In this document: positions 22,147-61,459 of the stretch, one piece after another | Numbering within the stretch: position 1 is the stretch's first letter | Layout of the letters: each line of letters begins with the position of its first letter | Assembly (NCBI RefSeq): GCF_003001815.1 | Contig: NZ_PVMZ01000003.1 | Coordinates: forward strand, 62,001-126,000 | Reading direction: 5' to 3' | Length of the DNA: 64,000 nucleotides | Origin: Actinoplanes italicus | Lineage (GTDB): Bacteria > Actinomycetota > Actinomycetes > Mycobacteriales > Micromonosporaceae | Program-made: the position numbers and the translations under genes | Notes under the pieces: model-generated | The model's database searches: none | Told to the model about the DNA's origin: nothing | Seen by the model: the letters and a program-made list of their open reading frames with translations, nothing else

Positions 22147-22203
22147 CCGGCTGTGTCATACCGCTGTCTCAACGCTGGTGAGACAGCGGTATGACACAGC
22201 CGG
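22147..22203. terminator. 57-bp hairpin element, copy A (ykoC terminator)
   Basis: A perfect 25-bp stem (22147-22171 with 22179-22203) encloses a 7-base loop. It begins 3 bases after the ykoC stop and separates the transporter operon from the PHP gene. The arm pattern CCGGCTGTG...ACCGCTGTCTC recurs at 26751-26807 and 38609-38665. Confidence 0.8.
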
Positions 22204-24525: not shown

Positions 24526-25116
24526 CTAGACGGATGCCCGCTCGCGGCCCGCCCCGAACCGGTCGAGCACACCGGTCGGTGCGAGTGCCCGCACCAGTGC
24601 CCACGAGCCGACCCCGGCCACCACGGCACCGCTGACCACGGTGATCGCGGCGTACGGGATCCGGTACGACCACACGTCGGTGCCCGCGTTCCACACGATG
24701 AAGTCGTAGATCGCCGCGCTGACGCCGGTCACCGCGCCGGCCAGCAGCGCGGCCGGCAGCTTGAAGTTGCGGTACAGCAGGATCGCGAAGACCAGCTCCG
24801 CGCCCAGCCCCTGGACCAGGCCCTGCACCACGGTCTGAACACCCCACTGGCTGCCCAGCAGCGCGGAGACGGTGGCCGCGACCGCCTCGGCGTAGAGTGC
24901 CGCTCCCGGCTTGCGGATGATCAGCCCGGCCAGCACGGCCGGGACCAGCCAGACGCCGTAGATCAGCGCCTGTGCCGGGGGGAAGAAAGCGAAGGCGCTC
25001 TCGGTGATCGACCAGACCGTGCCCCAGGCCCAGAAGATGACGCCGAACGCCACGGCGATGACGGAGGCGACGACGATGTCTATCGTCCGCCAGCGATTGA
25101 ACTCGAATACCTTCAT
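24526..25116 (-). CDS. ykoE: ECF transporter substrate-specific protein YkoE
   Basis: A 196-residue membrane protein with five to six hydrophobic helices, opening MKVFEFNRWRTIDIVVASVIAVAFG, the pattern of YkoE S components that bind thiamine or its pyrimidine precursor. GGGAGG lies five bases before the ATG at 25116. Its TPP riboswitch leader and the downstream ykoD-ykoC genes strongly support the substrate. The final residues GRERASV are cytoplasmic. Confidence 0.9.
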   Translation of the reverse strand: MKVFEFNRWRTIDIVVASVIAVAFGVIFWAWGTVWSITESAFAFFPPAQALIYGVWLVPAVLAGLIIRKPGAALYAEAVAATVSALLGSQWGVQTVVQGLVQGLGAELVFAILLYRNFKLPAALLAGAVTGVSAAIYDFIVWNAGTDVWSYRIPYAAITVVSGAVVAGVGSWALVRALAPTGVLDRFGAGRERASV

Positions 25117-25204
25117 GATTGCCTCCCAGTGGGTACCGGGAGGAGACGCACGCCGCGACCCCGGGCGGCGGTGCCCAGGGCACGACGCGGCTGGAGATGA
25201 CCGA

Positions 25205-25284
25205 ACTTCCTGCGCTGGCATTACCCAGATCAGGTACGAGGGTCTGCGGATGGCCCGCACTCTCAGCGCTGTGCGCTCCCCTGT
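25205..25284 (-). promoter_or_regulatory. TPP riboswitch (THI element)
   Basis: Read on the minus strand the segment contains GCTGAGAGTGC, CAGACCCTCG, ACCTGATCTGGGTAATGCC and GCGCAGGAAGT in the order and spacing of the thiamine pyrophosphate aptamer. It ends about 90 bases before the ykoE start, so thiamine pyrophosphate should repress the ykoE-ykoD-ykoC operon. Confidence 0.93.
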
Positions 25285-25380
25285 CGGATCGAAGCTCGCC
25301 CGCTCGCGCGGCCAAGCTTCGTTGGATGTGCTTCGATGACCGTAACACCTGGTAGCGGCGTGGCACAGGGGAGGGATCAC

Positions 25381-26750: not shown

Positions 26751-26807
26751 CCGGCTGGGCACCACCGTCGTCTCACGGCCGCTGAGACAGCGGTGGTGCA
26801 CAGCCGG
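26751..26807. terminator. 57-bp hairpin element, copy B (bidirectional)
   Basis: Arms 26751-26775 and 26783-26807 pair at 22 of 25 positions around a 7-base loop. It fills the gap between two convergent genes, stopping 2 bases before the stop codon of the one on the minus strand. Compared with copy A, CATACCG/CGGTATG is replaced by CACCACCG/CGGTGGTG, a compensatory change. Confidence 0.8.
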
Positions 26808-38608: not shown

Positions 38609-38665
38609 CCGGCTGTGCCGTACCGCTGCCTCAGCGAGCGGGAGGCAGCGGTACGACACAGCTGG
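38609..38665. terminator. 57-bp hairpin element, copy C (bidirectional)
   Basis: Arms 38609-38633 and 38641-38665 pair at all but two or three of 25 positions around a 7-base loop. The element sits between two convergent genes, 3 bases from one stop and 11 from the other. CTGCCTC/GAGGCAG replaces CTGTCTC/GAGACAG of copy A, another compensatory change. Confidence 0.8.
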
Positions 38666-58757: not shown

Positions 58758-58764
58758 GTAAGAG

Positions 58765-58838
58765 TGGGGCGGACGGGACTCGAACCCGTGACCGATCGAT
58801 TATGAGTCGACTGCTCTAACCCACTGAGCTACCGCCCC
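58765..58838 (-). tRNA. tRNA with anticodon CAU (Ile2 or elongator Met)
   Basis: A 74-base cloverleaf is complete: acceptor GGGGCGG/CCGCCCC, D-arm GCTCAGTGGGTTAGAGC, anticodon loop CTCATAA, T-arm with GGTTCGAGTCC. The anticodon is CAU. The GGGGCGG acceptor and anticodon stem resemble actinobacterial tRNA-Ile2, whose C34 is converted to lysidine, more than the elongator Met tRNA, but the two cannot be separated with certainty here. No CCA is encoded. Confidence 0.9.
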
Positions 58839-60346: not shown

Positions 60347-60640
60347 GTACACCTCACAGGCTGCAATCAACGCGATGCTCAGCGTAACTGGGCAACTGCC
60401 GCGCCGGAGGCGAAAGAGCCAGGCCACCAAAGGCTCGAAGATCAAGACCATCCGGCGGTACGCTCTCCGCCCACCCGATACAGGCGGATCTCCGCTCGTC
60501 AGCCCCGAAACCTCAGGCGAAGCACCCACCCCGCCCCGCCAACCCCGCCGTACCGCTGCCTCAAGCGCCGAGACGGCGGTGTGTCAGGCCCTTCCGATCG
60601 AGGACCGCGGGTTGGTAGACAGGAGGTGCACAACAGAAAA
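60347..60640. other. Intergenic region upstream of the FAD oxidoreductase gene
   Basis: About 290 bases with no credible gene. It should hold the promoter of the oxidoreductase, which I cannot place. It contains one degenerate copy of the 57-bp hairpin family at about 60548-60585 and the terminator of tRNA-Asn at its right end. Confidence 0.5.
60548..60585. repeat. Degenerate copy D of the 57-bp hairpin family
   Basis: CCGTACCGCTGCCTCA matches the left arm of copy C over 16 bases; the opposite arm (CGAGACGGCGGTGTGT) pairs at only 10 of 16 positions plus G-U pairs, with a shorter loop. Confidence 0.55.
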
Positions 60641-60662: not shown

Positions 60663-60673
60663 TCGAAGGTCTG

Positions 60674-60746
60674 CTCCCCGAATTGGACTCGAACCAATAA
60701 CCTGCCGGTTAACAGCCGGCTGCTCTGCCAATTGAGCTATCGGGGA
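60674..60746 (-). tRNA. tRNA-Asn (anticodon GUU)
   Basis: A complete 73-base cloverleaf: acceptor TCCCCGA/TCGGGGA, D-arm GCTCAATTGGCAGAGC, anticodon arm GCCGGCTGTTAACCGGC with GTT, T-arm GGTTCGAGTCC. No CCA is encoded; discriminator base G. Confidence 0.97.
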
Positions 60747-61334: not shown

Positions 61335-61359
61335 CCGGCTGTGCCTCACCGCTGTCTCA
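61335..61359. repeat. Half copy E of the 57-bp hairpin family
   Basis: CCGGCTGTGCCTCACCGCTG and the following TCTCA match the 25-base left arm; the right arm is absent. Confidence 0.65.
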
Positions 61360-61459
61360 AGGACCCCGGAGTCGTCGTCCTGCTCGCGGAAGCCGGGGTA
61401 TCGGGCCAGGCGGTGGCGGTCAGCCGTACGCGGGTGTGCGAGCGGTCACACGCGGGCCG

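Follow-up and report, generated by a model that had tools for sequence, protein, structure and literature searches.

A palindromic repeat family of Actinoplanes, found at gene ends and in protein linkers

Three hairpins of exactly 57 bp, with closely similar arms and different loops, lie behind genes in a 64-kb stretch of DNA (hereafter the window) from the soil bacterium Actinoplanes italicus. Are they ordinary transcription terminators, or are they copies of a repeat that has spread through the genome and been taken into use at the 3′ ends of genes? The hairpins were followed from the window to the whole genome and across the genus, and their positions, pairing, loops and possible origins were compared with those of known repeat systems.

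The hairpins of the window and their relatives

Each of the three window copies consists of two 25-bp arms and a 7-nt loop, and none is assigned to a strand. Copy 1 (22147–22203, 81.1 bits), with arms at 22147–22171 and 22179–22203 and the loop at 22172–22178, lies between two minus-strand genes, 3 bp past the stop of the CbiQ-like one. Copies 2 and 3 each separate a pair of convergent genes. Copy 2 (26751–26807, 71.2 bits) fills its gap, leaving 10 bp on one side and 2 bp on the other; copy 3 (38609–38665, 71.6 bits) lies 3 bp and 11 bp from the two gene ends and adjoins a GH43/ricin-lectin gene. The first-pass annotation, made from the sequence alone, had described three exact 57-bp hairpins in these contexts, and both its coordinates and its gene neighbourhoods were right: copies 2 and 3 lie 2–11 bp from both stops, and copy 1 stands behind a gene stop. 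The fold energies of copies 1, 2 and 3 are −55.2, −45.9 and −50.7 kcal/mol (z −9.7, −6.7 and −7.3); none of 200 shuffles folded as well, and the copies out-folded the shuffles by far on both strands. The two minor copies that had also been annotated fared differently. The one at 61335–61359 (plus strand) is the exact, intact arm of a decayed copy whose second arm is eroded and stretched, with the model match extending to 61427 (31.9 bits for 61335–61427), and the degenerate, shortened copy at 60547–60585, without an assigned strand, proved marginal (20.9 bits on the plus and 24.9 bits on the minus strand, E 0.035, fold z −1.0). An Rfam scan of the 64-kb window matched two tRNAs and one TPP riboswitch and nothing else, leaving the hairpins without a known RNA family. 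The tRNAs are tRNA-Met (CAT) at 58764–58838 and tRNA-Asn (GTT) at 60673–60746, both on the minus strand; the riboswitch (RF00059, 65.3 bits) is located at 25189–25292 on the minus strand, upstream of the minus-strand gene 24526–25116.

The family is far larger than the three copies. A covariance model built from 17 copies detected at least 149 significant matches in the 11.15-Mb genome of A. italicus, both strands counted. An exact two-block search yielded 27 matches genome-wide and none for the reversed control, and an arm search allowing up to 3 mismatches gave 219 matches among those listed, roughly 110 units, versus a single match in the reversed control, so that chance is excluded. A motif-free palindrome scan of 1.55 Mb of A. 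italicus sequence, picked for element sites, revealed 145 long hairpins, versus 3 in 1.37 Mb of shuffled control pooled from the species read. Locus-level counts cover 1.4–1.55 Mb of the genome; in 1.4 Mb, 98 units were resolved in 84 loci, including 71 single, 12 double, and one triple locus. Tandem units usually follow each other with a period of 63 bp, separated by a 6-bp spacer that in A. italicus often reads GAAGAT or ATCTTC, and the same GAAGAT/ATCTTC recurs as a neighbour in the flanks of some copies. The spacers of A. xinjiangensis are array-specific, and its arrays reach up to five units. Single arms are rare and are mostly decayed remnants of copies; the 11 additional arm sites inspected all proved to be complete or eroded copies. 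The A. xinjiangensis copy orthologous to window copy 1 (L155:4559–4720) is followed by two more right-arm-like copies (GGTTGACGGTGAGYTCAGGCRGCGGTGRGAGSCAGCCGG), which indicates that right arms alone can repeat in tandem. At another locus of the same species (L163:517–600), an array of roughly 46-bp repeats (GGTCACCCCATGACYCCGGCCGGCCCGCC...) lies beside a hairpin and reiterates the gene's 3′ end, stop included.

Model matches were found in the genomes of 24 of the 68 Actinoplanes species, and Actinoplanes was the only one of the 44 genera sampled from its bacterial family in which the repeat was detected. The exact core was found in none of the 60 relatives tested. A GTDB scan returned, among the matches listed, A. 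xinjiangensis, one place in A. utahensis, and one stray place in Halobacillus. In the genomes sampled, the palindromic repeat is genus-specific; no account of such a palindrome or REP family in Actinoplanes was found among the open-access papers searched. The genome and genus searches bear out what had been surmised from the window: a REP-like family of dispersed hairpins, specific to a lineage and with decayed copies among its members. The named carriers compared were A. xinjiangensis DSM 45184 and A. utahensis NBRC 13244 (genome G090). Each species has its own arm dialect within the same 25-7-25 frame. The arm ACCGCTGTCTC is common to A. italicus and A. xinjiangensis, whose outer arms differ, A. 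utahensis carries the dialect ACGGCTGTCTC, and two further Actinoplanes genomes carry ACGGGTGTCTC (G010) and ATTGCTGTCAC (G086).

The repeat occupies particular sites in some species and not in others. The site of window copy 2 is occupied in A. xinjiangensis by a hairpin whose arms differ, and in five other species the hairpin is absent and the convergent genes lie close together. The site of copy 1 holds a hairpin in A. xinjiangensis and none in three other genomes (G087, G014, and G010). At six sites common to A. italicus and A. xinjiangensis, the orthologous copies differ by 12–17 arm mismatches and are no closer than random cross-species pairs, which differ by 11–14, and they mostly resemble the copies of their own species more closely. 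Such species-typical arms at orthologous sites imply repeated insertion, replacement, or homogenisation, and point to the spread or homogenisation of whole palindromes.

Positions behind stop codons and inside proteins

With genes called by our own codon-usage caller, whose calls are heuristic, the 84 loci were divided into 32 convergent, 34 co-directional, and 8 divergent gaps, and 10 loci overlapped a called ORF. Compared with gaps of at least 60 bp, convergent gaps are enriched and divergent gaps depleted (p = 2e-9). The element lies within 15 bp of a stop codon at 53 of the 65 loci that have an adjacent gene end (median 5 bp), and both stops are this close at 20 of 31 convergent loci; among the co-directional loci, the distance to the upstream stop is shorter than that to the following gene in 28 of 34 (p = 0.0002). 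The tendency toward stop codons is also seen, more loosely, in A. xinjiangensis, where the loci were chosen for holding elements. In element-free genes of A. italicus, RNA folding stability peaks at +10 after the stop, indicating that the element occupies the normal terminator slot. At one locus of A. xinjiangensis (L171:11638), an element with a TTTTT tail lies behind a gene, and the same place in A. italicus and four other genomes (G021, G090, G087, and G015) is taken by five differing ordinary GC hairpins. Here the element occupies the position of an ordinary terminator, and the T tract is retained.

Most likely, an element behind stop codons ends transcription, or caps the 3′ end of the mRNA, from either side, and the hairpins would probably act as bidirectional 3′-end hairpins or terminators by co-option. 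The terminator role assumed in the first-pass annotation is consistent with the position at stop codons and with the terminator-replacing locus of A. xinjiangensis. Like intrinsic (Rho-independent) terminators, the element is a stable, GC-rich stem-loop a few bases past the stop, at one locus followed by a T tract. Unlike them, it shows elsewhere a weak enrichment of T that does not differ between the two sides (the first 10 flanking bases have about 0.25 T per position, versus a background of 0.146), and it keeps a constant length and conserved arms between unrelated genes. Given so weak and symmetrical a T tract, termination would be mainly hairpin-driven or protein-assisted. A simple scan for terminators returned none of the elements. 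A point against the terminator role is that a hairpin of this function should be harmful in coding sequence, yet the coding copies stay well paired.

The family is not confined to extragenic positions; some of its copies are in-frame protein insertions. Three genes were checked with their orthologues, encoding a ChsH2-like OB-fold protein, an FAD oxidoreductase, and an uncharacterised protein, and in each the element is read in frame. In A. italicus and A. xinjiangensis it contributes the peptide PLSQ...DSG (or PLSP...DSG), and the linkers are different and mostly shorter in the orthologues of G090, G010, G014, and G086, as well as of G087 and G015 where these matched. The insertion in the FAD gene is defined by the Actinoplanes orthologues, the PDB alignment being too distant. 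Two more loci are located in giant synthases, one in an AMP-binding/carrier linker and one in a condensation/AMP-binding linker. The consensus motif TGAGAC is present in 106 of the 192 strand-readings of all units, and its TGA is altered in the five genes read in that frame. Beside one in-frame element (L124:5300–5350), a second, partly decayed arm (CCCGGCTGTGTCACACCGG) is found in the same coding linker.

The coding copies also bear on how the pairing of the arms is to be read. Over 18 species, standard pairs occupy 97.1% of the pair cells, and both-side changes occur at 22 of the 25 pairs, which no shuffle reaches, although the units had been collected with a model that itself favours pairing. 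Within the A. italicus genome, outside variable positions, paired changes exceed the expectation under independence about threefold (30 versus 10). The matched arm differences noted among the three window copies are real, but one-sided arm changes are commoner than paired ones in this genome (250 versus 97). As proof of selection for termination the matched changes do not hold, because coding copies are paired nearly as well as the others (18–24 of 25 pairs) and pairing alone is no evidence for termination.

Known systems and possible origins

Palindromic repeats of such a kind are best known from RAYT-dependent REP/REPIN systems. The Actinoplanes hairpins are quite probably a genus-specific, REPIN-like, non-autonomous palindromic repeat that has been co-opted at 3′ ends, with some protein insertions resembling Rickettsia palindromic elements (RPEs). 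The species dialects, the presence and absence between lineages, and the mostly decayed state of single arms argue for REPIN-like behaviour. Against this reading, neither a mobilising enzyme nor a target duplication was found. The repeat, which occupies certain sites in some species and leaves them empty in others, would spread as a non-autonomous element with the help of some mobilising factor; copies behind stop codons would be retained for their ability to end transcription in either direction or to cap the mRNA, and some copies are tolerated in protein linkers. REPINs possess inverted, conserved ends and a less conserved middle, form a hairpin, and have defunct single ends (PMC3116915, PMC2817692). 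They are the closest known system in anatomy, sharing with the Actinoplanes element the hairpin-forming inverted ends, the species-specific types, the dispersed copies, and the tandem clusters. The Actinoplanes element differs from them in lacking a Y1/RAYT gene in its own genome and in several carriers, in showing, by eye, no head tag, and in its stems, nearly perfect over 25 bp, its 7-nt loop, and its strong tie to stop codons. RPEs also occur in frame in unrelated protein genes with a preferred reading frame (PMC10969869); they are set apart by description, being about 150 bp long and often coding, whereas the element here is 57 bp long, lies mostly at gene ends, and belongs to another phylum, probably with other sequences. 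The pneumococcal SPRITE, a small dispersed repeat that is rho-independent-terminator-like (PMC10969869), also comes from another phylum and is likened by description only.

A possible, though distinctly less likely, origin is a MITE, that is, a deletion derivative of some insertion sequence whose terminal inverted repeats would be the arms. The perfect inverted ends, the moderate copy number, and the dispersed sites fit this origin, and in-frame insertions are known for some MITEs (PMC10969869). A parent transposon should then be in evidence, but none of the 11 extra arm sites borders one, all of them being complete or eroded copies, and no target duplication was seen at the empty sites, which are too diverged to define or to exclude one.

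It is rather unlikely that the hairpins are non-mobile, ordinary terminators that look alike since one protein or polymerase favours their sequence, with convergence and purifying selection acting on the arms and leaving the loops free. The strict position behind stops, the unrelated loops beside conserved arms, and the orthologous sites with diverged arms would agree with such an account. It is opposed by the in-frame copies within genes, the decayed partial copies, the tandem arrays of 2–5 units, the identity of 50 of 50 arm bases among dispersed copies, and the species without any hairpin at orthologous sites.

That a RAYT (Y1) transposase moves the repeat, making it a true REP/REPIN family, is more doubtful still. 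With REPINs the repeat shares its conserved inverted ends and variable middle, its tandem clusters, and its defunct single ends (PMC3116915), and a Y1 protein is encoded by 11 of the 24 carrier species versus 10 of the 44 non-carriers (p = 0.06). However, no Y1/RAYT transposase was found in the A. italicus genome, in agreement with the absence of a transposase noted for the window, and no Y1 protein in the carriers G090, G086, G076, and G036. The single Y1 gene of A. xinjiangensis has no such hairpin within 1.5 kb, and no GTAG/CGTC head tag was seen by eye in the listed flanks of the A. italicus copies.

Uptake-sequence dyads, known from Neisseria and Pasteurellaceae, where a short self-spreading uptake motif pairs up to form terminators, are very improbable here. 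They resemble the element in being inverted pairs of a conserved motif that form hairpins with unrelated loops and are enriched between convergent genes (PMC1852404), and the species-specific arm types would also suit them. Yet uptake motifs (USS/DUS) are 9–11 nt long, generally exceed 1,000 per genome, and lie mostly outside terminators, with singles outnumbering pairs (PMC1852404), whereas the arms here are 25 nt long, number about 219, and are nearly always paired or parts of eroded pairs, so that the rarity of single arms already contradicts this origin. Scarcely credible are attC-like recombination sites of an integron-type system, which would share the position behind stop codons, the length of about 57 bp, and the AAC/GTT-like flanks of several copies, but are already contradicted by the lack of any integron integrase match above the TIGR02249 cut-off in the A. 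italicus genome (sub-threshold recombinase matches are weak, as in all control genomes), by the dispersal of copies, often between convergent genes and not in a cassette array, and by nearly perfect stems without conserved extrahelical bases.

The Actinoplanes family combines several features: in A. italicus it occurs without a RAYT, it is tied to stop codons, it is common to terminator-like and protein-linker positions, and it varies in dialect over many sequenced relatives. It makes the spread of a short hairpin, the preservation of arms but not loops, and the replacement of ordinary terminators testable. It also accounts for the odd linker peptides that annotators and natural-product workers meet in Actinoplanes synthases, and the elements could supply strong bidirectional terminators for engineering.

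Loops and the mode of spread

The loops are nearly unrelated between copies, even between those with identical arms. Six dispersed copies of A. xinjiangensis agree in 50 of 50 arm bases and carry five different loops, two of the six having the same loop in opposite orientation. Plain copy-and-paste fits such identical arms with unrelated loops poorly. Either the loops drift beside arms that are strongly constrained or homogenised, or a new loop is made whenever a copy disperses. Hypermutation of the loops is disfavoured as the cause, because tandem copies at similar arm divergence keep their loops (1.7 versus 3.5 mismatches of 7; 0 of 5000 matched resamples). Tentatively, the spread may copy the arms exactly and remake the 7-nt loop, or take it up, each time, and may also target and replace existing terminator hairpins. 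A recombinase or a fold-back process that takes the central 7 bp from the target would be an example of such loop renewal, and the targeting and replacement of hairpins would account for the species-specific dialects at orthologous sites. Across 143 units from A. italicus and A. xinjiangensis, the loops have a G+C content of about 85%; T is the first loop base in none of the 143 and A the last loop base in one. Either base in that position would create an ATG beside the stem.
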